From: Symbiodinium natans
Lineage: Eukaryota; Sar; Dinophyceae; Suessiales; Symbiodiniaceae
Length of the DNA: 64,000 nucleotides
Reading direction: 5' to 3'
Assembly (NCBI GenBank): GCA_905221605.1
Contig: CAJNDS010002002.1
Location: 62,001 to 126,000 of the forward strand
Part shown: positions 13,101 to 33,436 of the stretch, in pieces
How positions within the stretch are numbered: position 1 is the first letter of the stretch
Layout of the letters: each line of letters begins with the position of its first letter
Translations under genes and position numbers: made by a program
Notes under the pieces: generated by a model
Database searches by the model: none
What the model was told of the DNA's origin: nothing
What the model saw: the letters and a program-made list of their open reading frames with translations, nothing else

Positions 13101-15021
13101 AAGTGTGGAACGCTTGAGAGGACGCTGTTCTTGTGCACGCTGAGCATGCTGGAGCATGGCACGGGTGCTCTCCCGAAATGCGATGTTGGGCGGCAAGGCC
13201 AGTACGAAGACTCTCAGGTGGCGGGTTCACGTCACGTGAAGTATTCCAAGAGACCTTCGAGTTCGGATGCGGGCGAGAGTTGAGCCCAGCAAGGATCGCA
13301 ACTGCCCGCTCTACCGGCGTGTAGAGAGAGAGAGAGAGCGAGAGAGAGAGAGAGAGAGAGCTTCATTTTCTTGGCTGCAGGGACTCTACGCTGATAGGGG
13401 TCTCTAATTCACAGGCCGATCTCGATGGGCTGAATTATGCCTCCGGACCCTCTGAGGCGCACAGGAATCACAGGAATGTCTCTCATGTCTCTATCCGTGT
13501 CTAGTCTGCACAAGTCGCATTGCCAGCATGTCGCCAGGCAGAGCGAATTCATAGAATTCAGAGTCCCATCCCAGGCACAGGGAACCATAGAGCATTGCGC
13601 TTCGTAGCGTCGCAGCGCATTTTGTGCTGTCACAGGCGTCGGCTTTTCTTCCGGGGCGCCTCTTTGACACCTTCAGCGACAGCGCAGGATCTATGCAAAA
13701 AAGCATCTTCGTGTGGAGGGCTTGCTCAGAAGGGCCTGCTTTCTTCCGCTTCCTCAGCTCCGTGGCCTTGACCTCAGCACGCAAAGGCCGGCTCCCGAGC
13801 CCGGCTGCGCCTATGCGAAATCACTTCGAAAGCGACGACCCTTCGCTACGTCCACGAGAAAACCTGCAACATTTGGCTCCAGAGAGCGACTGCTAGCCGC
13901 TCTGGCGGAAGAACAGTGTCGGCTGAAGTCAAAGTGAGGAACAAAGAGAGAGAGTGAGAGACGAAGCTTTTGAACTGTATGGCTTCCGCCTCCAAGCACT
14001 CCAGGATCGCTTCGCAGACGACTTCTCAGAGTTGCGAGCCGGAAACATTTTGCCCCAAGTCCTGAATCCTTAGCCTCGCGCTTGCCCCAAACATCCGGTC
14101 TTCCGGTCACGTTGGGGTCGGCCAGGGTTGGCCAAAGAGCCTCAGCAAGGGGAAGGAAGCCCCCATGATCTTTGCACAGCTTGAAAGTGCAAAGGGCTTG
14201 AGTTGTGTCGGGACATCCCAAAAGGCGCGAGCGTCACGCGTGAGAAATGTGCTGAGAGCGCTGATCTTCCCCTCTAACAAAAAACCAACGAGAGAAGATG
14301 AGCTCGGGAACCTCCTGGCCTTTTCCAGGAAAATTTTGACTTTGAAGAAATTGACCTTGAAAAACGCACTCATATTTGTACTCATGCGAACTCATGTGGG
14401 CAGAGCTGGCATAGCTCTGGCACTCATCTCACGGCCGGCGCCTGGAGCTTCCGTGCGTCTTCGGGCTCCTTGCGGGGATCCCAGCCTGAGCAGAGAGCCA
14501 CAACGAAACGGCAGCCAGGGCCCATCCTAGCAGCCTCGCAGCAGCACACCCCCTGACACGGAGAACCCCTCTCTCATGAGCTTTGTAAGCCTCAAAGTCC
14601 CGTCGCTCAAGAATCTCAATTGACACCCGCCCACGCGACATCTCCGAAAACCAAGGATGTGCCAGAGAAGATTCGTTGGGAAACACATTGAAAAACATGT
14701 GATGCCTTGTTGACTTCTCTTTTACTGCTTCTTTCTCTTTGTACTGCTTCACCATGACACAGAGACACACAGAGACCCGGAGGAAAAGACATCACAAGTT
14801 GCAACAACCGTGTGCGCCGAACATCCAGCACACAGAAGCGGCAATTTTGGCCTGAAACGCGAAGTTGATAGAACTAAAGTTGCAGCGGGAAATAGAACTC
14901 AAGTTGCAGCGGGAAATAGAACTAAAGTTGCAGCGGGAAATTGACCCAGCGAAGACCGCGGATGGGCGTCCCCTTTTGGGAGCTCGTCCGGGGAAAAATG
15001 CGTGGGGCGGGTCCATGGGAA
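13101..15021 (-). other. Candidate exons and decayed duplicate of the 29-30.8 kb region
   Basis: Minus-strand frames here repeat those at 28.7-30.8 kb. At 13491-13784 a frame contains KATELRKRKK and LGWDSEFYEFALPGDMLA. At 14.1-14.3 and 14.45-14.75 kb lie shortened copies of exons that are more complete at 29.9-30.8 kb (for example SIEILERRDFEAYKAHE, followed by a deletion relative to 30.7 kb). Several indels break the copy. The exons could be the 5' part of the membrane-protein gene or a separate broken gene. Confidence 0.4.
14862..14942. repeat. 24-bp tandem repeat, three copies
   Basis: Three copies of a unit containing AAGTTGCAGCGGGAAATAGA, just downstream of the stop of TIR-like copy 1. 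The same triplication is at 31246-31321 downstream of copy 3. Copy 2 has only one diverged unit (about 23537-23560). Confidence 0.9.
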
Positions 15022-17095
15022 TTACCACCCAGGCCGCCGTAATAAAGCCTTCAAACCGAGGCCCAGGAGGAAGTTGCACACTACTAGAACCAGCGTGCAG
15101 CCTGCAAAACTTCCTGCGCGCTTCAATGCATTGTTAGAGTCGACAAACCGAGTGAGGACATAAGCTACGAGCAGTACAAAGACGGGGGCAGCCACAGCTC
15201 CCAACACCAGTGCGTTCTTGAGAATCTCAAGACAGGTGTTGCTCGGTCTCTTCCGACCAACCCTGACCAGGAGGATCATGAGATCCTTGGACGCTGGGAC
15301 GTAACACAACCAAAGCACCAGACCTTCGACCAGAAGGGCAAGAGCGGTCTGCGGAGCTTCTGGAGATGCAGCGATGCTAGCACAGACGTCCATGAAAGCC
15401 AGAAATAGCGGAGAAGTCACTCCCAAAACCCATGGAGTACTGAACACCTTCTCGGTGAGGTCACGGTTCAGAAGGTCCAGAACCTCGGTGCGCACCGCGT
15501 TCTCAAAAGACAGCTCGCTGCCAAACCATATCTTCACGCACTCTTTAACGATCCTGGGCGGCTGTCAGGACCAGCAAAAGGACTTCATTCGTGCTTCGTA
15601 CTGGGAACAAACGGACATGCTGAAAGTTGTAGAATGGCACTCAACAAGCGCCAAGCATCTTACGGTCACAGAGCATACGTCCGCCTGAAGGGGTCACGTG
15701 GTTCTGATCGCAGCAAGCACTCCTTGTAGAGTCAACAGAGATCGACAACAACTGCAGTTTCATGGTGTCCAAGTCTCTGAAGTAGCTTCGGACAGTGCTG
15801 ACAGTCGGGAAGGCAACCGCCAAAGACGACAACGCTATGGTCCCCAGTAGCCCGACGATCGCTGAATTGCTGTGGATAGGCGCTGTTGCGAGCGGCAATG
15901 CCAGGGCAAAAAACACAAGGAAAATAGCGATGGAAAGAGGCCCCAAGAAGATGGGCCTGACCATAAGGTGCTGCTGTTGCGTCGTCTTGCTCTTCAGGAA
16001 GGCAGCAAGCTCAAACAAGCACCACAACCTCGCGAGCGTGAGGGAAAAAAACGCTTAGGACAAGAGCCACTTAAGTATCAGAAGCAAAGCATCCGACGGA
16101 GCTTACCAAGTTCGCCGGACGCTCTGGCTTATCTTGGCTTAGCTTCCGCATCCACGAACGGGAGGGGGAGGGGATCTGATCTACATCATGTCTTTTGCTG
16201 TTCGGGAAGGCTTGTCCCGGCCCTTGTCCGACCTCTCAGTCCATGTCGGGTCCCAGAGAACGAGCATGCTGTCGGAGTTCTTCAAGAGCCCCGCCAAGCT
16301 TAGGATGGCCTCCGACTTCAGGCGATCGTCGTTTTGGCTGATACAAATGCGGTCAAGGAAGACTCTCGTTTGTGATCGCCAAAAAGGCAGGACCAAACTT
16401 GCAACGACGAGCCCTGAAGAAGTTGACCAACAAGACCACACCCAATTCTCAATCCACCATCCACGGTCAATCCCAGGTAGAGTTCCAAAGCTGAACAGCA
16501 CCATCATCAGCATGCCGGTGAGAAAAGCCAAGGAGACTGCCGCGGTGCCATTGTAGAGGGCGACAACTGTGAGGATTTTCTTCCACCGCCCTCCGTGCCA
16601 AGAGTGACTCCAAAATGTAGTTATCTTCGTACTTGCGCGGCTCTTGTGGTAGAAGTGTTTGTCAGATCCACCACGCAATGCTGCAGCAAACTGCTCCAAA
16701 GCTCGAAACACCGGCGTCACCCTCATGACCTCCGGGTTTACCACCGCCATCCTGGGCAATCGCTGGGATTCAAACCTCTTACTCAGTCTTCTGACTTGGT
16801 TTGCGTACTTGCGCAAAGCGATATACGGTAGGTACACTCAACCATGCCCCAGCTTCCGGGTAACGAGTTCTATCAGACTTGGCATCATGTCATCCACGTC
16901 GAGCATGACGTCGCGGTCGGATCCTATACTACCCCCAGGACTTGGTGCCAATGGAAGGTCGGGCATCGCGTGCATCGTCGCCGAGCTGCTGCCGCTGCCA
17001 GCCTCACAACACTCTCGTGCATCACTGTCATGCCACTCGTCTGGAACCGTCCAGCTCCGAATGGACTCCTCGCTGCTCTGGCTTGGCCTCCTCAT
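15022..17095 (-). CDS. TIR-like multi-pass membrane protein, copy 1
   Basis: Three exons, 16233-17095, 15650-16028 and 15022-15540, total 1761 nt in one frame (586 residues, counting one internal TGA at 16838-16840). After a Ser-rich N terminus and two membrane helices comes a segment resembling a TIR domain: VFLDRICISQ, then EAILSLAGLLKNSDSMLVLW, then TERLWCLFELAAFL. The W-C-x-x-E-L box resembles that of plant TIR domains, whose glutamate is the NADase catalytic residue. At least four more helices follow, and the protein ends LLRRPGW. The intron inside the TIR box is GT-AG and the next is GC-AG. Copy 2 has the same structure. The TGA could be removed by a 48-nt intron, be read through, or kill the gene. 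Enzymatic activity is inference only. Confidence 0.7.
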
Positions 17096-17179
17096 CCCTC
17101 TTGGCCTGGTGCCAGGCTTGAGCCGCAGTCGCCCGAACAGCCCGAACAGCCCGAACAGCGAATGAGCACTTGAATCCAA

Positions 17180-18720
17180 AGCCTAGCCACAAAAACCCGT
17201 CTCAACCTGAAACCCAGTGAACCTGAAGTTGGAGCATGGGACAAGGACGACGAGTTCTGGGATTCGCTGCAATTTGCCTTGAGCGCATTGAAGATAAGTG
17301 ACGTGCCATTCCACATTCCCTGAAAACCCAAATCCTGCAGATTGCGCAGAACATCCCAAACTTGTTAAAGGGACTAAGTTCAAGCTGCGAAGCTCCCAAA
17401 CAAGAACTCGCCCTACTTCCCACGCGTTTGAGAAGGAACCTGGGACTACAGCACCCTGACTCCCTCGGGTTTACGCCTTGTACCATGACCTCCGTGAGCC
17501 CTGACTTAGGCTCTTCTCTTAGGCTCGGGCGACAGTACATTTCCCCTGGTCATCGGCAGCCTGAACAGACAACGGCCCAGGCCACCCCTTCCGATAGCTG
17601 ATGCCACGGCCTTTTCCAGGAAAAGTCCGAAAGGCACCGAACATCCCAAAAGGCACGCGATAACGTGCTGAGAGCACTGATCGTCCCCTCTAACAGAAAA
17701 GCCGACGGGAGAACGTGAGCGATGCAGGCCTCGGGAACCTCCCGACCTTTTCCAAGAAAAGTCTTGTCCTTGAAGGAACATGACCTTCAAAACCATTCGC
17801 ACTCACCCAGTGGGTGCGGGCTCCGGGACTGGATTCGAGGTCGCGCGCCGATTTGCGCCGAATGCGCTGTGTTTCCTGGAGTGCGCCGCAATGCGCTGCA
17901 TGCGCTGCACGGCGCCGAATTGCGCTGAATTGCGCTGAATTGCGCTGCTTTGCGCTGATTAAGGGTCAGATGATGAAATATATTCACGGCAAGACACTTT
18001 TCGGGTTAAGCGGACATGGGGTCGTCAATTCGCAGCACGCTTAAATTGTTGGGTTTAGGGGATATCGGGTGCATGGGTGTGCGGGTTCTCGGCGGCGGGT
18101 TTATCGGGTCTGAGGACGCGCGGGTTTTCGGTAGCTACATGGGGCCTCAGCGACAACGAAGACCACCTGTAATGGGTGCGCATCGGCTAGTTTTTTTTGG
18201 GGGGGAGGAACTCCGCTCAGTTGGCATGGCTGACGCCGATCGGCATGAAGCACTTCGGTACAACGTGAACTTTTTCGGTTTGGGAGGAGATTAGCTCAGA
18301 GGCAGAGCATCTGACGTCTGAGGGCAAAGAATTGCTTTGCTCCTTAGCGTTTAAGGTGTATAGGGATTATAGGGTTTAGGGTTTATATAGGTTTAGGGCC
18401 TGACGACAGAAAGTGTGTTCAGGGTTCGGGAGGTTTTGATCTGCGCCTAATTATTGGGGAGCGCTGACAGCTGTTTTGCATATGAGGGCGCTGGCGGCCA
18501 TTCTTCCTCCCAGAAACACCGGGCGGCAGCTGCCAACAATCTATTCGAACTTGAGTGCTTGTTTTTCATCCAGGGCGCCAATGGTAAGGATGACCCGGCA
18601 AGTGTCGCAAGGAAAGAGACGCATCCATTCTCAGATTGTTTTGCTGCCTGGGGCGCGACTGTGAGATCAGTACTCTTCGACGTCGGCATGTAAAGTGTTG
18701 AAACGCAACGAGGGATGTAA
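17180..18720. other. 5' flank of TIR-like copy 1 and unassigned sequence
   Basis: From 17.18 to 17.6 kb the sequence matches the flank of copy 3 (33.49-33.95 kb) and includes short frames that may be leader exons or decayed coding sequence. From 17.6 to 18.7 kb I recognise no gene. 17862-17960 is rich in the words GCGCTG and GCGCCG, and 18048-18140 and 18350-18400 contain scattered TTTAGGG words. Confidence 0.35.
18283..18325 (+). other. tRNA-like fragment (box A)
   Basis: The sequence TTAGCTCAGAGGCAGAGCA reads as a D-arm with a good RNA polymerase III box A. The following bases do not pair as an anticodon stem, and no convincing box B or T-arm follows in place. It may be a tRNA relic or the head of a tRNA-derived SINE. 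It is not a functional tRNA as read. Confidence 0.3.
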
Positions 18721-18723
18721 TGT

Positions 18724-19039
18724 CGAAGACGCACCAACAAGCAGAACAACCGCAGATAGTAAGCGAAGACGCACCAATGAGCAAGACAAGCGCACATAGA
18801 GTGAAGACGCAGCAAGAAGCAAAGCAACGCACATAGTAAGCGAAGAGCACCAATATAAGCAAAACAAGCGCATATAGAGCGCAGATGCACCGATAAGTAA
18901 AACAACCGCACGTAGTAAGCGAAGACCCATGCAACAATAAGCAAATCAACCGCACGGAGTAAGCGAAGACGCACCAACAAGCAAAACAAGCGCACGTAGT
19001 AAGCGAAGAGGCACCAATAAGCAAAACAACCGCACGTAA
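18724..19039. repeat. 39-bp degenerate tandem repeat, about eight units
   Basis: Units follow the pattern GAAGACGCACCAA, then AAGCAAAACAA, then CGCACGTAGTAAGC, with 38-44 bp spacing and substitutions between copies. The minus-strand open frames across it are a by-product of the periodicity. Confidence 0.8.
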
Positions 19040-19479
19040 TTAATTCCCCCCTGTTAAGGGGCTGGGGGAGGTGTGGTGCGGGGGGGGACCCCCCTCGAGA
19101 AAATGGGTCCGAACCTACATTTCCGGGTTTCCGGAAATAGGCCCGGGCCTATTTTCTTTTAGGCCGTGGTTTGGGTATGTGAACCTTCGTAGGAGGCTGT
19201 GGCTTCTTGTTCATCCTTAGGCGTTGGCCTCTTTGCGTCATCGTAGCTATATCTTTGATGCGCGCATAAGTCTGCAGACCTATGTTCCGCTCATGGCGCT
19301 TGGGGCGATGATGCGAGTCTCAGGCGTGCAGGTTGGCTACACTCATGGGGGCTTTCTGCCGATGACGCATGATGACGCGACCTGAGAGGTGCAGGTTGGT
19401 CACGCTGATCGGGCCCGGCTTGGGCAACACGCAGGGCGCAGAGCGTCAGCAGCGGCAGCGACCGTCAGCAAGGGACGTA

Positions 19480-20035
19480 GTTAAGGATCGGGTTTATCGG
19501 TCGGTGCGCAGCAGGTTTCTTGGCGCGGGTTTAGCAGTGCGCCACGGGTTTATCGGGTTAGTGAATTTATGTAGCGGGTTTATCGGTGCGCCACGGGTTT
19601 GTCGGGCTTGGCGGGTACATCGGTGCGCCACGGGTTTATCGGGTTTAGCGGGTTTATCAGTGTGCCACGGGTTTATCGGGTGTAGCGAGTTTATCGGTGC
19701 GCCACAGGTTAGCAGGTTCGCCACGGATTTAGCGGGTTCAGCGGGTTTATCGGTCGCCGCGGGTTGAGCGGGTTTAGCGGGTTTAGCGGGTTTATCGGTG
19801 CGCCACGGGTTTAGCGGGTTTTAGCGGGTTTAGCGGGTTTAGCGGGTTTATCGGTGCGCCACGGGTTTAGCGGGTTTAGCGGGTTTATCTGTGCGCCACG
19901 GGTTTAGCGGGTTTAGCGGGTTTAGCGGGTTTAGCGGGTTTTGGGGTTTAGCGGGTTTAGCGGTGCGCCACGGGTTTACCGGGTTTAGCGGGTTTATCGG
20001 TGCGCCACGGGTTTAGTGGGTACGGGACTGCGGCG
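19480..20035. repeat. Telomere-like array of TTTAGCGGG and TTTATCGGTGCGCCACGGG
   Basis: A dense array in which GGGTTTAGCGGG units alternate with GGGTTTATCGGTGCGCCACG units. The 9-bp core TTTAGCGGG differs from the telomere unit TTTAGGG by two inserted bases. Order and spacing are irregular, as in a higher-order satellite that has exchanged units. Confidence 0.85.
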
Positions 20036-20134
20036 TCCGACATGCAAGGTTGGGTTTTCGAGATGCAAAGCGCGCGCCCGAGATGCATGGCACCAAGCCG
20101 TTTGCATCTCGAAAACCCAACCTTGCATGTCGGA
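20036..20134. repeat. Perfect 34-bp inverted repeat
   Basis: Arms at 20036-20069 and 20101-20134 are exact reverse complements, separated by 31 bp. The inner part of each arm contains TTTGCATCTCGAAAACCC, the same word that starts each unit of the satellite that follows. The structure sits exactly between the telomere-like array and that satellite. Confidence 0.9.
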
Positions 20135-20217
20135 CCAGGATTCTATTTTTGCCTTCCTACACCCACCTGGGACGCCGGGACCAAGATTTTGCTGAATTTC
20201 TCCTGCTCTCTTTACTT

Positions 20218-22800
20218 TTACTAGAATTTCCTCTTTACTTTAATAGGATTTCCTCCACGGCCTCAGCAGTTTGCATCTCGAAAACCCACCTGTGCCGGTT
20301 CGACCCAGATTTTACTATTATACTATTTTACTATTTTACTATTTTACTATTTTACTATTTTACTATTTTACTATTTTACTATTTTACTATTTTACTATTT
20401 TACTATTTTACTATTTTACTATTTTACTATTTTACTATTTTACTATTTTACTATTTTACTAATTTTACACGAAATCGGGAGTTTGCATCTCGAAAACCCA
20501 CCTGTGCCGGTTGGACCCAGAATTTACCACTTTACTGATTTCGCGCGAAATCCAGAAAAACTCCTCCTTCTCTCTTTACTTTTAATAGGATTTCCTCCAC
20601 GGCCTCAGCAGTTTGCATCTCGAAAACCCACCTGTGCCGGTTCGACCCAGATTTTACTATTTTACTATTTTACTAATTTTACGCGAAAGGGGGGTGTTTG
20701 CATCTCGAAAACCCACCTGTGCCGGTTGGACCCAGAATTTACCACTTTACTGATTTCGCGCAAAATCCAGAAAAAAAATCCTCCTTCTCTCTTTACTTTT
20801 AATAGGATTTCCTCCACGGCCTCAGCAGTTTGCATCTCGAAAACCCACCTGTGCCGGTTCGACCCAAATTTTACTATTTTACCAATTTACTAATTTTACA
20901 CGAAATCGGGAGTTTGCATCTCGAAAACCCACCTGTGCCGGTTGGACCCAGAATTTACCACTTTACTGATCTCGCGCGAAATCCAGAAAAACATCCTTCT
21001 TCTCTCTTTACTTTTAATAGGATTTCCTCCACGGCCTCAGCAGTTTGCATCTCGAAAACCCACCTGTGCCGGTTCGACCCAGATTTTACTATTTTACTAA
21101 TTTGCTAATTTTACGCGAAATCTCGAAAACCCACCTGTGCCGGTTGGACCCAGAATCTACCACTTTACTGATTTCGCGCGAAATCCAGAAAAAAATTCTT
21201 CCTTCTCTCTTTACTTTTAATAGGATTTCCTCCACGGCCTCAGCAGTTTGCATCTCGAAAACCCACCTGCGCCGGTTCGACCCAGATTTTACTATTTTAC
21301 TATTTAACTATTTTACTAATTTTACGCGAAATCGGGAGTGTGCATCTCGAAAACCCACCTGTGCCGGTTGGACCCAGAATTTACCACTTTACTGATTTCG
21401 CGCGAAATCAGAAAAAACTCCTCGTTCTCTCTTTACTTTTAATAGGATTTCCTCCACGGCCTCAGCAGTTTGCATCTCGAAAACCCACCTGATTTACTAT
21501 TTTACTATTTTACTAATTTTACGCGAAATCGGGAGTTTGCATCTCGAAAACCCACCTGTGCCGGTTGGACCCAGAATTTACCACTTTACTGATTGCGCGC
21601 AAAATCCAGAAAAAACTCCTCCTTCTCTCTTTAGATTTCCTCCACGGCCTCAGCAGTTTGCATCTCGAAAACCCACCTGTGCCGGTTCGACCCAGATTTT
21701 ACTATTTTACTATTTTACCATTTTTACTATTTTACTACTTTACTAATTTTACGCGAAATCGGGAGTTTGCATCTCGAAAACCCACCTGTGCCGGTTGGAC
21801 CCAGAATTTACCACTTTACTGATTGCGCGCAAAATCCAGAAGAAAAAAAATCCTCCTTCTCTCCTTATTTTAAATAGGATTTCCTCCACGGCCTCAGCAG
21901 TTTGCATCTCGAAAACCCACCTGTGCCAGTTCGACCCAGATTTACTATTTTACTATTTTACTGATTTACTAATTTTACGCGAAATCGGGAGTTTGCATCT
22001 CGAAAACCCACCTGTGCCGGTTGGACCCAGAATCTACCACTTTACTGATTTCGCGCGAAATCCACAAACAAATCCTCCTTCTCTCTTTACTTTTAATAGG
22101 ATTTGCTCCACGGCCTCAGCCTCAGCAGTTTGCATCTCGAAAACCCACCTGTGCCGGTTCGAACCAGATTTTACTATTTTACTATTTTACTATTTTATTA
22201 TTTTACTATTTTACTATTTTACTATTTTACTATTTTACTATTTTACTATTTTACTATTTTACTATTTTACTATTTTACTATTTTACTATTTTACTATTTT
22301 ACTATTTTACTATTTTACTAATTTTACGCGAGATCGGGAGTTTGTATCTCGAAAACCTACCTGTGCCGGTTGGACTCAGAATTTACCACTTTACTGATTG
22401 CGCGCAAAATCCAGAAAAAAACTCCTCCTTCTCTCTTTACTTTTAATAGGGTTTCCTCCACGGCCTCAGCAGTCTGCATCTCGAAAACCCACCTGTGCCG
22501 GTTCGACCCAGATTTTACTATTTTACTATTTTACTGTTTTACTATTTTACTATTTTACTATTTTACTATTTTACTATTTTACTATTTTACTATTTTACTA
22601 TTTTTACTATTTTACTATTGTACTAATTTAGTAATTTTACGCAAAATCGGGAGTTTGCATCTCGAACGAAACCCACCTGCGCCGGTTCGACCCAGATTTT
22701 GCTATTTTACAATTTTACTAATTTACTAATTTTACGCGAAATCGGGAGTTTGCATCTCGAAAACCCACCTGTGCCGGTTGGACCCAGAATTTACCACTTG
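20218..22800. repeat. Composite satellite, about ten units of 190-345 bp
   Basis: Each unit has a common module with TTTCCTCCACGGCCTCAGCA, then TTTGCATCTCGAAAACCC and CCTGTGCCGGTTCGACCCAG, then a variable (TTTTACTA)n tract, then a second TTTGCATCTCGAAAACCC module with CCGGTTGGACCCAG and an AT-rich tail. Unit starts (TTTGCAT or variant) are near 20270, 20612, 20829, 21044, 21247, 21469, 21657, 21901, 22129 and 22473. Open frames through it (for example 21795-22397) arise from the repeat and are not called as genes. Confidence 0.9.
20318..20461. repeat. (TTTTACTA)n microsatellite
   Basis: An 8-bp unit repeated about 18 times without interruption. The satellite contains two other long runs at about 22168-22320 and 22515-22615. 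Run length explains most of the difference in satellite unit length. Confidence 0.9.
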
Positions 22801-23635
22801 CATCTCGAAAACCTCCTCTGGCATGTCGGATCCCAGGAAAGTTTGCATCTCGAACACCTACCTTTGCATGTCGGACCCCCAATTTGCATGTCGGACAGAG
22901 GGATCCCGGTTTAGCGGGTTTATCGGTGCGCAGTCCCTGTTTCCGCGCGCAATGCAAAGTCCCATTGCTCAAGAATCTCAATCTACAGCCACCCGCGTTA
23001 AATCCCCGAGAACCAGGGATGTGCCAGAGAAGATTCGTTGGGATAAGCCTTGTTGATGTCTCTTTGTACTGCTTCACCATGACACAGAGACACAGAGACA
23101 CAGAGACACAGAGACACACAGAAAAGACACCGCAAGTTGCAACCACCGTGCGCGCGTGGGCGCGCGCCCGCCTCGCGCAATTGAGCTGCTTAAAGCTGCT
23201 TAGCAATCAGAAATCCAAGGCATTCTCAGGGGACGACACAGGTGCGTGCTTGAGGCCCGACTCGAGCCAAACCTGTCGCTTTTCTCGTATGTGACATGAC
23301 TCAGCCCTGACTCAGCCCTGACTCAGCCCTGACTCAGCCCTGACTCAGCCCTGACTCAGCCCTGACTCAGCCCTGAGCAGGTCTCTCCCAGAAGAGTTGG
23401 ATCAGCTTCTCAAGGAAGAGAGCATCCTGTCCTCGTTCTCATGCTGATAGAATGGCAGAATGTTTGGGGACAGGCGGAGTTACGGAACATCCAGCAGGGC
23501 GGCCTTGTTTTTCCCTGACATGCCAAGTTGAAAGCCAGAGTTGCGGCGGGAATTTGGCCCAGCAAGACGGCAGCAGCCCCTTTTGGGGATGCATCCCGAA
23601 AAGTGCGCGGGGGGGGGGGACTTTTTGCATGGGAA
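22801..23635. other. Satellite edge and 3' flank of TIR-like copy 2
   Basis: 22801-22915 contains three more TTTGCATCTCGAA or TTTGCATGTCGGA modules and a final GGTTTAGCGGGTTTATCGG unit. From about 22.96 kb the sequence matches the flanks of TIR-like copies 1 and 3 (CCCATTGCTCAAGAATCTCA and following). An 11-bp repeat is listed separately. Confidence 0.6.
23297..23375. repeat. 11-bp tandem repeat TGACTCAGCCC
   Basis: Seven perfect copies. The equivalent place downstream of TIR-like copy 3 (about 31095-31115) has one copy-like sequence, so this expansion is specific to copy 2. Confidence 0.9.
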
Positions 23636-25715
23636 TTACCACCCAGGCCGCTGTAATAAAGCCTTCAGACCAAGGCCTAGAAGGAAGTTGCACACTACTA
23701 GAACCAGCGTGCAGCCTGCAAAAATGCCTGCACGCCGCAGCGCATGGTCAGGTTCGACAAATCGAGTGAGGCCATACGTGACGAGCACTACAAAGACGGG
23801 GGTAGCCCCAGCTCCCAACACCAGTGCGTTCTTGAGAATCTCAAGACAGGTGCTCCTCGGTCTCTTCCGACCAACCCTGACCAGCAGGATCATGAGATCC
23901 TTGGTCGCTGGGACGTAACACAACCAAAGCACCAGACCTTCGACCAGAAGGGCAATAGCAGGCTGCTGATCGTCTTGAGCTGCAGCCATGCTAGCAGAGA
24001 CGTCCATGAAAGCCAGACATAGCGGAGAAGTCACTCCCAAAGCCCATGGAGTACTGAACACCTTCTCGGTGAGGTCACGGTTCAGAAGGTCCAGAACCTC
24101 GGTGCGCACCGCGTTCTCAAAAGACAGCTCGCTGCCAAACCATATCTTCACGCACTCCTTAACGATCCTGGGCGGCTGTCAGGACCAGCAAAAGGACTTC
24201 ATTCGTGCTTCGTACTGGGAACAAACGGACATGCTGAAAGTTGTAGAATGGCACTCAACAAGCGCCAAGCATCTTACGGTCACAGAGCATACGTCCGCCC
24301 GAAGGGGTCACGTGGTTCTGATCGCAGCAAGCACTCCTTGTAGAGTCCACAGAGATCGACAACAACTGCAGTTTCATGGTGTCCAAGTCTCTGAAGTAGC
24401 TTCGGAGAGTGCTGACAGTCGGGAAGGCAACCGCCAAAAACGACAACACCAAGGTCCCCAGTAGCTCTACGATCGCTGTATGGGTGTGGATAGGCGCTGT
24501 TGCGATCGGCAATGCCACGGCAAAAAACACAAGGTAAATAGCGATGGAAAGAGGCCCCAAGAAGATGGGTCTGACAATAAGGTGCTGCTTTTGCGTCGTC
24601 TTGCTTTTCAGGAAGGCAGCAAGCTCAAACAAGCACCACAACCTCTCGAACGTGAGGGAAAACAGAAAACGCTTAGAACAAGAGCCACTTAAGTATCAGA
24701 AGCAAAGCATTCGACGGAGCTTACCAAGTTCGCCGGACTCTCTGGCTTGGGTTATCTTGGCTTAGCTTCCGCATCCACGAACGGGAGGGGGAGGGGATCT
24801 GATCTATATCATGTCTTTTGCTGTTTGGGAAGGCTTGTCTCAGCCCCCATCCCACCTCTCAGTCCATGTCGGGTCCCAGAGAACGAGCATGCTGTCGGAG
24901 TTCTTCAAGAGCCCCGCCAAGCTTAGGATGGCTTCCGACTTCAGGCGATCGTCGTTTTGGCTGATACAAATGCGGTCAAGGAAGACTCTCGTTTGTGATC
25001 GCCAACAAGCCAGGACTAAACTTGCCACGACGAGCCCTGAAGAAGTTGACCAACAAGACCACTCCCAACCGGGAAGCCACCATCCACGGTCAATCCCAGG
25101 TAGAGTTCCAAAGATGAACAGCACCATCATCACCATGCCGGTGAGACAAGCCAAGGAAACTGCCGCGGTGCCATTGTAGAGGGTGACAACTGTGAGGATT
25201 TTCTTCCACCGCCCTCCGTGCCAAGAGTGACTCCAAAATGTAGTTATCTTCGTACTTGCGCGGCTCTTGTGGTAGAAGTGTTTGTCAGATCCACCACGCA
25301 ATGCTGCAGCAAACTGCTCCAAAGCTCGAAACACCGGCGTCACCCTCATGACCTCCGGGTTTACCACCTGCATCCTGGGCAATCGAGAGTCAAACCTCCT
25401 ACTCATTCTTCTTACTAGGTTTGTGTACTTGCGCAAAGCGATAAACGGTAGGTACACTCAACCATGCCCCAGCTTCCGGGTAACGTGTTCTATCAGACTT
25501 GGCATCATGTCATCCACGTCGAGCATGACGTCGCGGTCGGATCCTCTACCACCCCCAGGACTTGGTGCCAATGGAAGGTCGGGCATCGCGTGCATCGTCG
25601 CGGAGCTGCTGCTGCTGCCAGCCTCAGAACACTCTCGTGCATCACTGTCACGCCACTCGTCTGGAACCGTCCAGCTCCGAATGGACTCCTCGCTGCTCTG
25701 GCTTGGCCTCCTCAT
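23636..25715 (-). CDS. TIR-like multi-pass membrane protein, copy 2
   Basis: Exons 24856-25715, 24264-24642 and 23636-24154 give one frame of 1758 nt (585 residues, counting an internal TGA at 25458-25460). Organisation and motifs are as in copy 1: ISQNDDRLKSEAILSLAGL, the split box TER/LWCLFELAAFL, several membrane helices and a C-terminal ALLQRPGW. Relative to copy 1 it has one in-frame codon loss (RFDSRLPR against RFESQRLPR) and scattered substitutions, and no frameshift. The base before the last acceptor differs (AAGGAG against AAAGAG), which favours placing the junction after GAG in all copies. Two intact copies suggest either recent duplication or selection on the protein. Confidence 0.7.
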
Positions 25716-26290
25716 CCCTCTTGGCCTGGTGAACGGAAGGTACCGGAGGCTGCCAGGCTTGAGCAGCAGTCGCTAACTCATTCTGCTAGCGTAGACCCCG
25801 AAGAGCCCGAACAGCGGAAGAGTGTCACAACAGCCGAAACTTGTTAAAGGGGCAGAGTTCAATCTGACATACTTCCGTAATCCTGGCAGTTCTGGCATGT
25901 AAAGCGGGATGACAGGGCTCTACTCTTTCGGGCTTGCGCCTTGCACCACGAACTCCATGAGTCCTGAGGCTCTTCTCTTAGGCTCGGGCAATCGATTTCC
26001 CCTGCGTCCGCAGCCTGAACAGCAGAGCTGACTAGGGTCATGCTGCATGCGATATACTGAAGCCAACCTCCTTGGCACCCATCATCGGCTGTGCTGGGAT
26101 GTGCGGGAGTTGAACCTTGCATTCTGCTCCTAAAATTCTGTTCACGTTCCAAGATCCCCCGAGGCTCAAAGCCAGCGCCTCACCGCATCGACAAGAAGGA
26201 CATCCTTCGGCTCTGGGTATACGAGGGTCGCGTGCTCCTTATGAGAGATTTCTTTTCTATCCCATAGGGCAAAGTGTGATGCGCTTCTTC
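25716..26290. other. 5' flank of TIR-like copy 2, decayed exon copies
   Basis: This matches 33.44-34.2 kb with many small deletions. The frame that reads MMGAKEAGFSISHAQ at about 33.96-34.02 kb is broken here soon after GAKEVGFSIS. It probably once carried exons of a neighbouring gene. Confidence 0.45.
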
Positions 26291-27020
26291 CGAAGTCGCT
26301 TTCTCGTCATGTGAAGGGGGTTCTTCTCCCGTCCTCTGTTCCAAGGGCTGTCTGCTTCCCCGGCCAGCTCCGAAGTCGATGCTCAATTTTGGGGAGATGG
26401 TTTAACGGCCTGCCTGGCCGGCTTTGCATTCTCTTGCTTGCGAGCCTCCAGGGAAGAGATGGGCATGAGATGGGCAGGACTCCTCCCATCCTTTCCCTCT
26501 TTCGTCCCAACCACCCCTTCCGAGTTTGCGGTCTCTCTGAAGCTTCGGCAGGCGGAGCTCTGAAGCAAGGTGCAAGACGTGCAAACCTGAGCGCTGGCCA
26601 AGTCCCAACATCCACCGGAATCTACCGCACCCAATTGCATGCCCAGGCTATCCAATGCAAGCGAAGACTTGGCTGTCATAATTTGGTACAGTACATCTGG
26701 GGGCCACAAGCATCTCGAGCAAGGAACTTTCAAAGCTGTGTTTTGCTGTGGTGCTATGCCCCTCGCCTCTTGCGAAACTGGATGCTGCGTCCACGTCGGG
26801 CTTCCGTACAGGAAGTCTACCAGAACACGGATGGCCTGTCATAGGCGCTCTCACATATGTGCTCAGACACATGACTCAAATGTCGTACGGCTGTTTCCTT
26901 GCGTCTCCTGGCCTCTGCGTGCTTGATGCCGCGCATTTCCAGCTCAAAAATGTTGCAACCCATCTCTCCCTGCAGCTCTGACAGCACTCCAAGTCCAACT
27001 TCCAGCGAGGTTCCCCCAAA
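26290..27020 (-). pseudogene. BTB/POZ-domain gene copy 1, frameshifted
   Basis: Minus-strand exons read GEMGCNIFELEMRGIKHAE (about 26925-26985), then AIRVLVDFLYGS (about 26810-26843), and a later block matching VLHLASELRLPKLQ of copy 2. The first two join at a GC donor and an AG acceptor to give the strand-helix pattern of a BTB domain (a protein-interaction fold). Relative to copy 2 at 36.1 kb, four bases are missing just before the LHLASELRLPKLQ block (near 26580), which shifts the frame. The copy is therefore probably broken. The BTB call rests on the pattern only. Confidence 0.5.
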
Positions 27021-27029
27021 GAGGGGGAC

Positions 27030-27476
27030 CGCGTTAACAACAACAGTCTCTCTCTCTCGCGCTCTTCTTCTTCTGCTGGGCATAGGGGAAGGCCCCCCGC
27101 GCACTGGGCGCGCCCGAGGCTGAGTCAGGTGCGTGTGCTCTCTCTCTCTCTCGCTCTCTCTCGCGCTCTCTTCTTCTTCTGCTGGGCATAAAAACGCTAG
27201 CACCCGCCGCGCGCGAAGCGCGCCCTGATCCTTCAGTCCTTTGTGACACTTTCCGATGAACTCTGGAGTGTATGCGGACGGCTTGCTCCTTTGTTCCTCC
27301 TCCCGAGAGCTCGTCCTGATCTACTCACCCTCGCGCTCTCTCTTCTTCTTCTTCTTCTTCTTCTTCTTCTTCTTCTTCTTCTTCTTCTTCTTCTTCTTCT
27401 TCTTCTTCTTCTTCTTCTTCTTCTTCTTCTTCTTCTTCTTCTTCTTCTTCTTCTTCTTCTTCTTCTTCTTCTTCTT

Positions 27477-27524
<48 letters not shown>

Positions 27525-27831
27525 TTCTTCTTCTTCTTCTTCTTCTTCTTCTTCTTCTTCTTCTTCTTCTTCTTCTTCTTCTTCTTCTTCTTCTTCTTCT
27601 TCTTCTGCTGGGCTTAAGGGTGCCCCCCCGCGCACGGAGCGCGCCCGAGGCTGAGTCAGGTCCTGTGAGACCACTACGCGCTCTCTCTCTCTCTCTCTCT
27701 TTCGCGCTCTCTCTCTCTCTCTCTCTCTCGCGCTCTCTGCTTTTGCTCTCTCTCTCTCTCGCGCTCTCTCTCTCTCTGTCTCTCTCTCGCTCTCGCACTC
27801 TCTTCCCCCGAGAGGGTTCCCCCGGCCACGA

Positions 27832-27862
<31 letters not shown>
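27030..27862. repeat. Polypyrimidine region with (CT)n runs
   Basis: Nearly all C and T on the plus strand, with (CT)n/(CTCG)n runs at about 27045-27070, 27135-27175, 27675-27800 and 27833-27862 around the long TTC array. Two imperfect copies of a GC-rich block (CGCGCCCGAGGCTGAGTCAG) are at about 27107-27128 and 27640-27660. The minus-strand frames here encode only Arg/Glu or Lys runs. Confidence 0.8.
27341..27606. repeat. (TTC)n trinucleotide array, about 88 units
   Basis: Two interruptions only, near 27478 and 27500. It is an uninterrupted polypyrimidine strand with mirror symmetry, so it could adopt triplex (H-DNA) structure. The equivalent place in the duplicate near 36.57 kb has no such array, so it expanded after duplication or was lost from the copy. 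Confidence 0.95.
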
Positions 27863-27867
<5 letters not shown>

Positions 27868-28379
27868 GAAAGATATAGACATGCAAATCAAAAATACACC
27901 CCCCCCAGCACGCACACAGCGTGCACCCTGGAAAAGGGGCGAAAAAACCCAGACTCCGAGATTCCAGAGAGATTCCAGAGAGCCTCCGAGACTTTGAGAC
28001 TCCGAGACTCCGAGACTCCGAGACTCGCTCTCGGAAGCTTGTTCTCTTCGGGTGTCCACGGCCCTGACACCAGGCAGACCTAAGAAAAAACTAGGTACTA
28101 AGAACTTGCACCCAAAAAAGCGCAGGTCGAAGCTCTTCGCAATTCATAGGCGTCGAGTGCCAAACAAAGAGAAGAGAGCGCAACGGGACAAAAACAGATC
28201 CGGGGGAAGGGGTGCTCCGCGCGCGTGGGGAACACTTCCAAGGGAGCGGTGCTGGGCACTCTGCGACCCGGTCTTCGGGGGCTTGGCCGCTTGACCCCCC
28301 GAGCCCATCATTGCTAAGTGGAGGTGGTCGACAAGCAACGTCTACAACCATGTCATCCCCCCGCCTCGGCTCTAGGGGT

Positions 28380-28441
28380 GTCACAGTTGAGTTGCTTTGC
28401 ACCATCCAGGATTAGCCTCTGACACGGAGGCGATGCGTTCA

Positions 28442-28473
<32 letters not shown>

Positions 28474-28735
28474 TATGTGAGGGAAAATGTCAAAGGGGAA
28501 TCTCAGAAAACTCCCCCCCGCAAGCTCCTCAAACCATGTTTGTTTGTTGCCTTGTGGAATTTCGCGGGTCAGCTCCGCCAAGGCGAAGCCGGCCATGATG
28601 ACCGTGGCCTGGAGCTTGCGAAGCTCTTGCTGGCTCAAGGTCTCGACTTGACAGGCTTCTGAATTCCATCTCTAAGTGTGGAACGCTTGAGAGGACGCTG
28701 TTCTTGTGCACGCTGAGCATGCCGGAGCATGGCAC
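28380..28735 (-). pseudogene. Partial copy of the QKELDFYTNN membrane-protein gene
   Basis: The frame SQQELRKLQ runs straight into VIMAGFALAELTREIP. The sequence between them at 12.9-13.04 kb, which encodes VRQKELDFYTNN and contains an intron, is deleted here. Downstream exons with LRGPDG are absent; the sequence passes into a GA repeat and the block shared with 37.1 kb. It is a truncated duplicate. Confidence 0.7.
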
Positions 28736-28974
28736 GGGTGCTCTCCCGAAATGCGATGCTGGGCGGCAAGGCCAGTACGAAGACTCTCAGGTGGCGGGTT
28801 CACGTCACGTGAAGTCACATGACACCGATTCCAAGAGACCTGCGGGGTTCGGATGCGGGCGAGAGTTGAGCCCAGCAAGGATCGCAACTGCCCGCTCTAC
28901 CGGCGTGTAGAGAGAGAGAGGGAGAGCTTCATTTTCTTGGCTGCAGGGACTCTACGCTGATAGGGGTCTCTAAT

Positions 28975-29450
28975 TCACAGGCCGATCTCGATGGGCTGAA
29001 TTATGCCTCCGGACCCTCTGAGGCACACAGGAATCACAGGAATGTCTCTCATGTCTCTATCCGTGTCTTGTCTGTACAAGCCGCATGCCAGCATGTCGCC
29101 AGGCAGAGCGAATTCATAGAATTCAGAGTCCCATCCCAGGCACAGGGAACCATAGAGCATTGCGCTTCGTAGCGTCGCAGCGCATCTGTCACAGGCGTCG
29201 GCTTTTCTTCCGGGGCGCCTCTTTGACACCTTCAGCGACAGCGCAGGATCTATGCAAAAAAGCATCTTCGTGTGGAGGGCTCAGAAGGGCCTGCTTTCTT
29301 CCGCTTCCTCAGCTCCGTGGCCTTGACCTCAGCACGCAAAAGCCGGCTCCCGAGCCCGGCTGCGCCTATGCGAAAGCACGGCGAAAGCGACAACCCTTCG
29401 CTACGTCCAACCACGAGAAAACCTGCAACATTTGGCTCCAGCTCTGAGGA
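28975..29450 (-). other. Candidate exon LGWDSEFYEFALPGDMLA (duplicate of 13.4-13.8 kb)
   Basis: A 96-codon frame at 28975-29265 is uninterrupted here, whereas its counterpart at 13409-13784 is split by small indels between two frames. It contains SLKVSKRRPGRKADACD and ends GGIIQPIEIGL. I do not recognise it. Conservation between duplicates at both DNA and frame level is the only evidence for coding. Confidence 0.35.
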
Positions 29451-29879
29451 AGAACAGTGTCGGCTGGAGACGAAGTGAGGAGCAAACAGAAAGAGCGAGA
29501 CAACAGCATGGCTTCACGCCTCCAAGCACTCCAGGATCGCTTCGTAGACGACCTCTCAGAGTTACAAGCTGCAAGCTTTGTAAACACGGTCACCGGAAGC
29601 TCCCGCAGCCCGCCATCTTTGTAGATTGATTGAAAGTTCATGGGAAGGCCCCGGTTTCCTACAACAATTTCAGGTTCCCAACGTTTTCCTCAATCATTGA
29701 CCTCCGGTTTCCCGAGTCTGCGCTATAAGTCCTGAATCCTTAGCCTCGCGCTTGCCCCAAGAATCCGGTCTTCCGGTCACATTGGGGCCGGCCAGGGTTG
29801 GCCAAAGAGCCTCAGCAAGAGGAAGGAAGCCCCCATGATCTTTGTGCAATTTGAAGCACGTGCAAAGGTATTCCAAAGG

Positions 29880-30800
29880 CTTCTCAAAGGCTCGCCTTGG
29901 ACGCCTTGCACCAGGGACTCCACAAACTCATCCTGCAGGCAGCCCATGCAGTAGCCAGCACGACTCCAGCAGTCTGGTGTTTTCACGTGTTTTTCACATG
30001 TCTTTTTCTCTCTAAACCCACAGAATGTGCTTCAGATCCTCGATGAAGTCAAGCACATAGAGCGAGGAGCGCCGAGTGGGGGCGCTGTGGAAGAAGATGT
30101 CGTCGGACGCCTCCGATTTGACCAGCAACTGACCCAGAGCCTCGTGTAAAATTAATTACCAAAGCGGTGCCCCCAATTGTACCCCTTCCTGGACCCCCAG
30201 TGGCACGGACCATGAAGAAGTGCATCACGCGTGAGTGAGTAACGTGCTGAGAGCACTGATCGTCCCCTCTAACAGAAAAGCCGACGAGAGAACGCGAGCT
30301 GCGCAGGCCTCGGGAACCTCCCGGCCTTTTCCAGGAAAAGTCTTGTCCTTGAAGGAAATGACCTTCAAATCCATTCGCACTCAGAATGTCATATGTGTAC
30401 TCATGTGGGCATAGCTGGCACAGCTCTGGCACTCATCTCACGGCTGGCGCCTGGAGCTTCAGAGCGTCTTCGGGCTCCTCGCGGGGATCCCAGCCTGAGC
30501 AGAAAGCCCCAACGAAACGGCAGCGAACGGCAGCGGCACGCGGCAGTTCAGGGCTTTCGGGGGGCGGCCTTGCCTAGTCGTGCATAGGCCTGCTGCCAGG
30601 GCCCATCCTTCCACTGGTATGCGACAAAGGGCAGCAGCCTCACAGCAGCACACCCCCTGACACGGAGAAACCCCTCTCTCAGTGCACTCTCCACCTCTTG
30701 AGCCTGTCCCCGTCCATGAGCTTTGTAAGCCTCAAAGTCCCATCGCTCAAGAATCTCAATTGACACCCGCCCTCACGCTAAATCCTCGAAAACCGGGGAT
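29880..30800 (-). CDS. Unrecognised protein, at least three exons
   Basis: Exon 30018-30140 (41 codons, SEASDDIFFHSAPTRR then LYVLDFIEDLKHILW) begins after GAG|G and ends at a GT donor. Exon 29905-29932 (DEFVESLVQ) follows in phase and may extend further. An upstream frame at 30548-30766 starts MSIEILERWDFEAYKAH and has an amphipathic helix, then FVAYQWKDGPW. The composition is clearly protein-like, but I cannot name the family. It lies between TIR-like copy 3 and the truncated membrane-protein copy. The shorter version at 14.1-14.75 kb has deletions, so this is the better-preserved copy. Confidence 0.45.
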
Positions 30801-31245
30801 GTGCCAGAGAAGATTCGTTGGGAAACGCGGTGGAAGTATGTGACGCCTTGTTGATTTCTCTTTGTACTGCTTCACCATGACACAGAGACAGAGACAAGAT
30901 GCAACCACCGTGCGCGCCATTGAGCTGCCTAAAGCTGCTCAGCAGTCAGAACCCCAACGCCTTCTCAGGCGACGACACAGGTGCCTGCTTGAGGCCCGAC
31001 TCGAGCCAAACCTCTCGCTTTTCAAGAGCATCGGCGCGCATCATGCTCATCATGATTCATCATGTCTGTGCCATGGCTGGTTTGTTGCATGTGACACGCT
31101 CAGCCCGGAGCAGGTCTCTCCCAGAAGAGTTGGACGAGCTTCTCGAGGAAGAGAGCATCCTGGCCTCGTTCCAACAAATGGAGGCGGAGAACACTTTCCG
31201 AACATCCAGCACCCAGAAGCGGCAATTTTTACTCTGAAACGCGAA

Positions 31246-31321
31246 GTTGATAGAACTAAAGTTGCAGCGGGAAATAGAACTCAAGTTGCAGCGGGAAATA
31301 AAACTAAAGTTGCAGCGGGAA
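31246..31321. repeat. 24-bp tandem repeat, three copies (second site)
   Basis: Same unit and copy number as at 14862-14942, including a shared variant in the middle unit (CAAGTTG). The triplication therefore predates the duplication that produced TIR-like copies 1 and 3. Confidence 0.9.
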
Positions 31322-31410
31322 ATTGACCCGGCGAAGACCGCGGATGGGCATCCCCTTTTGGGAGCTCGTCCTGGGAAAAATGCGTGGGGCGGGTCCAGAG
31401 TCCATGGGAA

Positions 31411-33436
31411 TTACCACCCAGGCCGTCGTAATAAAGCCTTCAGACCGAGGCCCAGGAGAAAGTTGCACACTACAAGAACCAGCGTGCGGCCTGCAAAACT
31501 TCCTGCGCGCCGCAGTGCATCGTCAGAGTCGACAAATCAAGTGAGGCCATACGCTACGAGCATTACAAAGACGGATGTAGCCCCAGCTCCCAACACCAGT
31601 GCGTTCTTAAGAATCTCAAGACAGGTGCTCCTCGGTCTCTTCCGACCAACCCTGACCAGCAGGATCATGAGATCCTTGGTCGCTGGGACGTAGCACAACA
31701 AAGCACCAGACCTTCGACCAGAAGGGCAAGAGCAGGCTGCTGATCGTCTGGAGCTGCAGCCATGCTAGCGGAGACGTCCATGAAAGCCAGAAATAGTGGA
31801 GAAGTCACTCCCAAAGCCCATGGAGTACTGAAGACCTTCTCGGTGAGGTCACGGTTCAGAAGGTCCAAAACCTCGCTGCGCACCGCGTTCTCAAAAGACA
31901 GCTCGCACTCTTTAACGATCCTGGGCGGCTGTCAGGACCAGCAAAAGGACTTCATTCGTGGACATGCTAAAAGTTGTACGTAGGATGGCACTCAACAAGC
32001 GCCAAGCATCTTACGGTCACGGAGCATACGTCCACCCGAAAGGGTCACGTGGTTCTGATCGCAGCAAGCACTCCTTGTAGAGTCAACAGAGATCGACAAC
32101 AACTGCAGTTTCATGGTGTCCAAGTCTCTGAAGTAGCTTCGGACAGTGCTGACAGTCGGGAAGGCAACCGCCAAAGACGACAACACTATGGTCCCCAGTA
32201 GCTCCACGATCGCGGTTGCGTAGTAGATAGGTGCTGTTGCGATCGGCAATGCCAGGGCAAAAAACACAGGGAAAATAGCGATGGAAAGAGGCCCCAAGAA
32301 GATGGGTCTGACAATAAGGTGCTGCTATTGCGTCGTCTTGCTTTTCAAGAAGGCAGCAAGCTCAAACAAGCACCACAACCTCTCGAACGTGAGGGAAAAC
32401 AGTGCTTAGGACAAGAGCCACTTAGGTATCAGAAGCAAAGCATCCGACGGAGCTTACCAAGTTCGCCGGACGCTCTGGCTTATCTTGGCTTAGCTTCCGC
32501 ATCCACGAACGGGAGGGGGAGGGATCTGATCTATATCATGTCTTTTGCTGTTTGGGAAGGCTTGTCTCTTCCCCCATCCCACCTCTCAGTCCATGTCGGG
32601 TCCCAGAGAACGAGCATGCTGTCGGAGTTCTTCAAGAGCCCCGCCAAGCTTAGGATGGCCTCCGACTTCAGGCGATCGTCGTTTTGGCTGATACAAACGC
32701 GGTCAAGGAAGACTCTCGTTGTGATCGCCAAAAAGTCAGGACCAAACTTGCAACGACGAGCCCTGAAGAAGTTGACCAACAAGACCACTCCCAATTCTCA
32801 ATCCACCATCCACGGTCAATCCCAGGTAGAGTTCCAAAGATGAACAGCACCATCATCAGCATGCCGGTGAGAAAAGCCAAGGAAACTGCCGCGGTGCCAT
32901 TGTAGAGGGTGACAACTGTGAGGATTTTCTTCCACCGCCCTCCGTGCCAAGAGTGACTCCAAAATGTAGTTATCTTCGTACTTGCGCGGCTCTTGTGGTA
33001 GAACAGATCCACCACGCAATGCTGCAGCAAACTGCTCCAAAGCTCGAGACACCGGCGTCACCCTCATGACCTCCGGGTTTACCACCTCCATCCTGGGCAA
33101 TCGCTGGGATTCAAACCTCTTACTCAGTCTTCTGACTAGGTTTGCGTACTTGCGCAGAACGACAAACGGTAGGCACACTCAACAATGCCCCAGCATCCAG
33201 GCAACGTGTTCTGCCAGACTTGGCATTATGTCATCCACGTCGAACATGACGTCGCGGTCGGATTCTATACTACCCCCAGGACTTGGTGCCAATGGAAGGT
33301 CGGGCATCGCGTGCATGGTCATGGAGCTGCTGCCGCTGCCAGCCTCACAACACTCTCGTGCATCACTGTAATGCCACTCGTCTGGAACCGTCCAGCTCCG
33401 AATGGACTCCTCGCTTGTCTGGCTTGGCCTCCTCAT
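31411..33436 (-). pseudogene. TIR-like membrane protein, copy 3 (decayed)
   Basis: It aligns with copies 1 and 2 along its whole length but has several frame-breaking lesions. Eight bases are lost near 33003, one base near 32720 just before the LDRICISQ region, one base near 31698, and about 20 bases near 31905 that remove the KIWFGSEL segment. The N-terminal frame (start 33436, MRRPSQ) and the split W-C-x-x-E box remain recognisable. The TGA after the N-terminal segment is at 33179-33181, as in the other copies. It is not expected to make a full protein. Confidence 0.8.

Follow-up and report, generated by a model that had tools for sequence, protein, structure and literature searches.

Can a membrane hairpin lie inside a TIR-like domain, and what would such a protein do? 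This question is raised by a stretch of 64,000 nucleotides from the dinoflagellate Symbiodinium natans (assembly GCA_905221605.1, contig CAJNDS010002002.1, positions 62,001 to 126,000 of the forward strand; hereafter the window, to which all coordinates refer), in which three copies of one gene lie on the minus strand between positions 15022 and 33850. A sequence-only reading had proposed that these genes encode a multi-pass membrane protein with a TIR-like domain and a plant-type W-C-x-x-E box. From the computations described here, we file the family within the TIR/HET superfamily, as neither a plant-type TIR nor a HET domain proper, and its TIR-like core appears to be split by a hairpin of two predicted helices. 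Its likeliest function would be the glutamate-dependent cleavage of nicotinamide adenine dinucleotide (NAD) or of a nucleotide, under the influence of the membrane helices, and we put the chances of this at about even.

A joined core query returned at least 155 matches, at expectation values (E) up to 0.001, in the organism's own genome (759 Mb in 2543 contigs); this is a lower bound on matches, and some genes are counted once per exon. The three local copies of the sequence-only reading are all present, but the third reads as a pseudogene and the family is not just local. Forty loci were fetched, and the 20 with a W[CS]xx[EDQ] motif in frame were aligned. These paralogs are 21-34% identical to the first row. 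In all 20, F, S, H, W, K and A are unchanged in the part that ends at the first helix, as are F, D, Q, S, R, L, W and E beyond the hairpin.

The glutamate of the box had been singled out from the start, and its conservation across family alignments holds up: it is kept at all 40 readable loci, of which 20 had been chosen with the motif filter (E, D or Q allowed), while four loci were unreadable (L028, L033, L043 and L048). All 20 aligned sequences have it, and it is also found in copies 1, 2 and 3 of the window and in L012, L023, L025, L027 and L078. In twelve others (L016, L017, L019, L029, L030, L009, L010, L011, L013, L014, L015 and L032) it is restored by a stretch further downstream, which would be the next exon. 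A blind motif count had found it in 23 of 31; the eight misses were three unrelated pattern matches (L013, L035 and L048) and five loci whose frame leaves the family within the box (L016, L017, L019, L029 and L030).

What does this core resemble? We divide it into three soluble blocks, with strands named by analogy with TIR: beta-A and alpha-A (FWSHSW..K), beta-B and alpha-B (FLDxxCIxQxD..K), and beta-C and alpha-C (RLWCxxE). The contiguous core was searched against the PDB as a profile of 21 rows (A3), and all 23 matches at E<=10 were TIR proteins (best E=0.0021), some of them recognised as such by name. When block 1 was joined to the core and the hairpin omitted (A4, 20 rows), 27 of 28 matches were TIRs, and the best of them, TLR15/2 (E=1.6e-4), aligned without a gap from beta-A to alpha-C. 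With the window copy also omitted (A8, 19 rows), TIRs made up 26 of 27 matches (best E=1.3e-4). These searches of solved structures bear out the TIR-like order of segments that had been read from the letters. With the hairpin left out, the beta-A, beta-B, beta-C and alpha-C blocks are collinear with those of the TIR domain (Pfam PF01582 and PF13676; TLRs, plant TIR receptors, SARM1, bacterial TIRs), with which the family shares both this order and a WxxxE motif.

Pfam, run on the 20 hairpin-free cores, matched TIR_2 in 15 (best E 1.9e-4), TIR in nine (best 2.3e-4) and HET in seven (best 0.04). With PADLOC and NCBIfam, ThsB, PDC-S66 and the TIR-like N-terminus of FxsC each matched two cores, all weakly, and a further three NCBIfam families, unrelated ones, each matched a single core. 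In an hhalign comparison the family scored 42 against 25 bacterial sequences, our sole TIR yardstick, and 60 column shuffles scored 21 or less; these scores, here and below, are single comparisons with no database correction. Across the genome, two loci passed the Pfam TIR cut-off. One is the family member L078 (28.7 bits against 21.3), and the other, L079, carries a FIST-like part (E 0.0036, below its own Pfam cut-off) and, after it, a TIR-like domain.

Could all this be a chance likeness of a short motif, in a domain unrelated to TIR? Searched as a single sequence, the protein found only weak PDB matches (E 0.37 or worse), of which seven of 11 were TIRs, as such a likeness might give. Since the profile matches are nearly all TIRs, no shuffle scores above half the true value and one paralog exceeds the Pfam cut-off, we regard chance as highly improbable. 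The plant-type label, in turn, was rejected: the PDB searches rank the animal TIRs of TLR15/2 or IL1RAPL1 first and place plant TIRs further down; the WCxxE box also occurs in TLRs, as profile alignments show, and the remaining conserved residues match fungal HET domains.

The position of block 1, ahead of the first membrane hairpin, deserves closer attention. We compared A8 with two controls built from the same 19 rows, A5 and A6, in which the columns of block 1 were reversed or permuted. TLR15/2 scored 25.3 bits with the true block and 16.8 and 17.3 in the controls; TLR1 scored 20.7 against 13.9 and 13.8, and TLR6 20.5 against 13.5 and 13.5. In these three structures block 1 falls on the TIR beta-A strand, about 7-8 bits above both scrambled versions, and the control matches start only at beta-B. 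The gain was about 2 bits for RPS4 and 1-2 bits for the RPP1-type NADase (7crb). Because block 1, placed ahead of the hairpin, lifts the TLR matches over their scrambled controls, the core appears to be one TIR-like domain that is split between alpha-A and beta-B, a reading for which these gains, mostly those of TLRs, are the main evidence. The sequence-only reading had placed the box between membrane helices but had overlooked that the domain itself apparently contains the first hairpin.

HET domains have been proposed as remote relatives of TIR, with three similar blocks up to alpha-C, by Dyrka et al. 2014 (PMC4986451). Could the family be a HET domain proper, that is, a dinoflagellate branch of the fungal-type HET family (PF06985)? 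The three motifs S-[HYFC]-x-W, D-x-x-C-x-x-Q and R-x-W-x3-E, searched anywhere in each sequence, occurred together in 21 of the 22 family sequences (L040 lacks the C), in 22 of 25 HETs found with the Pfam model (24 of them distinct) and in none of the 25 bacterial TIRs, although WxxxE alone is present in 18 of the latter. Fungal HET domains share the family's full three-motif signature, including the glutamate, and hhalign scored 44 against the 25 HETs, with 60 shuffles at 20 or less. An earlier HET yardstick (A7, 7 rows), which had given 58, was dropped as biased, its sequences having been chosen by a WIDxxCINQ pattern. Set against this likeness, the Pfam HET model had no match in the genome at E<=0.001, the seven matching cores stay below its cut-off, and the aligned stretch covers 38 columns, from beta-B to alpha-B, against 90 for TIR. 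Blocks 1 and 2 of the family are, moreover, parted by a membrane hairpin, an arrangement that is not known to occur in HET proteins. A HET domain proper is, in our judgment, a rather unlikely identity.

HET and TIR scored only 20 against each other. Because the family matches both profiles about equally while the two did not match each other here, it makes the proposed TIR-HET kinship directly testable. According to a 2023 review (PMC10197012), HET genes also form large, expanding families, a trait that the present family shares. As a side observation, a record labelled Deltaproteobacteria MAG (metagenome-assembled genome) CPC1 (L050, G002) held 41 HET matches, which suggests that it contains fungal DNA.

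How is the protein arranged in the membrane? Hydropathy of copy 1 gives eight segments in four pairs, which agrees with the multi-pass architecture first proposed; the second transmembrane segment (TM2) is weak (1.30). Eleven long paralog frames show five to seven segments each at a threshold of 1.55. Blocks 1 and 2 are 67-84 residues apart, and between them all 22 sequences have one strong segment (>=1.75) and a second of 1.04-2.02, weak in several. Because the helices come in pairs, the large soluble parts would share one side of the membrane, presumably the cytosol. TM4 is followed by a CC-x3-H...CDR block, which resembles a metal site; among the 19 sequences long enough to judge (three were too short), CC is found in 19, CCxxxH in 17 and CDR in 19.

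With so many helices, the protein might instead be a channel or transporter in which a TIR/HET-like module senses nucleotides and regulates, without being an enzyme. A mere anchor would hardly seem to need eight predicted helices, paired into four hairpins, the first of which has the domain stitched into it. Yet neither the window protein nor 10 paralogs matched a channel or transporter family at the Pfam cut-off, and conservation, judged by eye, is lower in the helices than in the soluble blocks, and so we consider this explanation distinctly improbable.

We propose instead that the family consists of membrane-tethered TIR/HET enzymes that cleave NAD or a nucleotide with the conserved glutamate, a proposal about as likely to be right as wrong. 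In this model, a protein with eight helices in four hairpins, belonging to a large dinoflagellate family, would assemble its three soluble blocks into one TIR/HET-superfamily domain, which the hairpin between alpha-A and beta-B would stitch into the bilayer. The enzyme would most likely be switched by movement or clustering of the helices, and its output could be a cell-death, stress or biotic signal. The computations show the family itself, the TIR kinship of its core, the position of block 1 ahead of the hairpin and the conservation; the fold, the sidedness, the catalysis, the trigger and the role in the cell are inferred from these. The alpha-C glutamate, a feature of NADase TIRs, is present in the family; according to one survey, more than 70% of TIRs have it, a share that exceeds 90% for the groups in which NADase activity has been reported (PMC7075850). 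For HET domains, the 2023 review cited above describes enzymatic activity as still to be established (PMC10197012). A 2025 review attributes NAD hydrolase activity to the TIR/HET kind in the running text, but its table has HET as not determined (PMC12881547).

A functional parallel is TirC of Dictyostelium, a membrane-tethered protist TIR which, like the family, has the conserved glutamate. TirC, a potent NADase, has been proposed to be held in check by its N-terminal helix; it has one predicted helix, N-terminal to the domain (PMC13142454), whereas the family has eight, two of them apparently inside the domain. Within the S. natans genome itself, L079 (G000:C1447), the other locus above the TIR cut-off, is a soluble protein with the blocks FLSHS, CVDH and RAWCLYE. 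Because 19-residue hydropathy does not exceed 0.71 in the 62 residues that separate the first two of these blocks, L079 has no hairpin there, unlike the family.

The same domain could also work without catalysis, as a TIR scaffold that assembles with other TIR or HET domains in the manner of TLR and IL-1 receptor signalling, its helices serving as receptor or anchor. The top PDB matches, among them TLR15/2, TLR1, TLR6 and IL1RAPL1, speak for such a scaffold; against it, all 20 paralogs have the same polar residues at several positions (S, H, K, D, Q, S, R and E), a pattern that looks closer to that of an active site than to that of a scaffold surface. On balance we find the scaffold somewhat improbable.

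Several results nonetheless weigh against a TIR-type enzyme split by the membrane. A search with TIR profiles, the check suggested by the sequence-only reading, succeeds for L078 but not for the window protein, which reaches 15.9 of the required 21.3 bits (E=0.012); nor do any of 10 full open paralog frames attain the cut-off, four matching a TIR model at E<=1 and six not. Block 1 failed to help some structures: with the true block and in the two controls, respectively, the scores were 20.1, 20.9 and 22.6 for IL1RAPL1, 15.9, 16.9 and 19.1 for IL1RAPL2, and 14.5, 15.1 and 16.3 for Roq1, while RUN1 was unchanged. Part of what 7xoz, a plant protein, gained in A4 is due to block 1 matching it a second time, out of collinear order, close to its C-terminus. 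Nor did block 1 raise the hhalign score, which was 42 for every version, although the alignment grew from 46 to 90 columns. Lysine and arginine make up 47 of 353 loop residues (13%) on one side of the membrane and 4 of 47 (9%) on the other; loop charge, which had looked like clear evidence of sidedness, was dropped as such once normalised by length. Finally, the TIRs of TLRs have the same box and glutamate and are not known to be NADases, and it is because of them that we place NAD or nucleotide cleavage at about even chances.

In several kingdoms, cell death and immunity are under the control of TIR and HET domains. If true, a hairpin inside a TIR-like fold would add a mode of regulation that is new for these domains. 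Dinoflagellates include coral symbionts and bloom formers, and at least 155 matches in one alga suggest a major repertoire. We envision, tentatively and knowing it to be the less likely outcome, that the bilayer gates NAD or nucleotide cleavage in split, polytopic TIR/HET enzymes that have expanded in dinoflagellates, that the family bridges TIR and HET in evolution, and that its copies form an immune, cell-death or symbiosis repertoire. A literature search on TIR and HET domains in dinoflagellates and on TIR NADases of microbial eukaryotes found no description of the family. In the text of the eukaryotic TIR atlas dinoflagellates are named once, for SARM1-like sequences; the uncharacterised clades of that atlas could include this family. 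Elsewhere, one pattern match in viral contigs and 22 in prokaryote genomes yielded no confirmed relative.

Are these genes under selection? Over 122 codons of exon 2, the ratio of non-synonymous to synonymous substitution rates (dN/dS) of copy 1 is 0.33, 0.45 and 0.41 against L009, L010 and L011, respectively, which speaks for more than chance; for most more distant rows the ratio was not computable. Between copies 1 and 2 it is 0.82 over the same codons and 1.65, 0.83, 0.77 and 0.68 for exons 1 to 4, so that recent constraint on these two copies is weak. The dinoflagellate spliced leader has 205 exact matches in the genome (104 forward, 101 reverse) and its reversed sequence none, and we read the window as dinoflagellate DNA accordingly. 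At two of the unreadable loci, L048 and L028 (G000:C55 and G000:C1771), the frame of the family continues without a stop into long frames. These resemble, on visual inspection, a retroelement protein with an OTU-like part that was apparently inserted near the box.

Within the window, copy 1 (15022-17095, minus strand) is modelled with four exons and an intact product of 552 residues, shorter than the 586 or so first estimated. Exon 1 (16857-17095) has the presumed start codon and the N-terminal soluble region, its joint fitted to single-exon paralogs. Exon 2 (16233-16751) encodes block 1 with FWSHSW (beta-A), the hairpin TM1-2, FLDRICISQ of block 2 (beta-B) and SMLVLWD (beta-C); the SDSMLVLW segment first noted lies in this exon. 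Exon 3 (15660-16028), which contains LWCLFELAAFL, encodes block 3, RLWCLFELAAFL (alpha-C with the glutamate), followed by TM3-4 and the CC-x3-H...CDR block, and exon 4 (15022-15553) the WFGS block, TM5-8 and the stop codon. The box segment TERLWCLFEL, written earlier as contiguous, is split in the DNA by intron 2 (16029-16232), a GT-AG intron of 204 bases between TER and LWC. Introns 1 (16752-16856, 105 bases) and 3 (15554-15659, 106 bases) were set as GA-AG, the choice best fitting single-exon paralogs such as L020 (538 residues) and not one taken from transcripts. Intron 1 contains a TGA that closes the frame ahead of exon 2 and differs between copies by 7.6-11.8% substitutions; intron 3 has its joint at CDRK-IVK, likewise fitted to paralogs such as L020, and because the copies differ there by just 0.8-2.9%, divergence is no help in defining it.

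Copy 2 (23636-25715, minus strand) has the same exon structure and the same length of 552 residues, with exon 1 at 25477-25715, exon 2 (beta-A, TM1-2, beta-B, beta-C) at 24856-25374, exon 3 (RLWCLFEL box, TM3-4) at 24274-24642 and exon 4 (TM5-8) at 23636-24167. It is 93.5% identical to copy 1 in DNA, and the modelled exons are open throughout in both. Copy 3, also on the minus strand (region 31332-33850), is 90.3% identical over the aligned stretch (about 31411-33436) and still has a readable RLWCLFELAAFL. It reads as a pseudogene because of frameshifting deletions and stops in exons 2 to 4: deletions of 8 bases and 1 base in exon 2 and of 21 bases and 1 base in exon 4, with stops in exons 3 and 4.

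The duplication of copies 1 and 3 exceeds the gene, flanking stretches within 13035-17500 and 28608-33850 recurring at 92-99% identity, and the match of copy 2 to the others is confined to the gene body. Nine other long frames of the window were compared with Pfam, and none matched at a cut-off. Between the copies, 20247-22757 holds several direct-repeat blocks of low guanine-cytosine content, some with copies 8 bases apart, and 27247-27648 is taken up by a long simple repeat, spaced at 9 and 12 bases, whose frames encode poly-Arg and poly-Glu.

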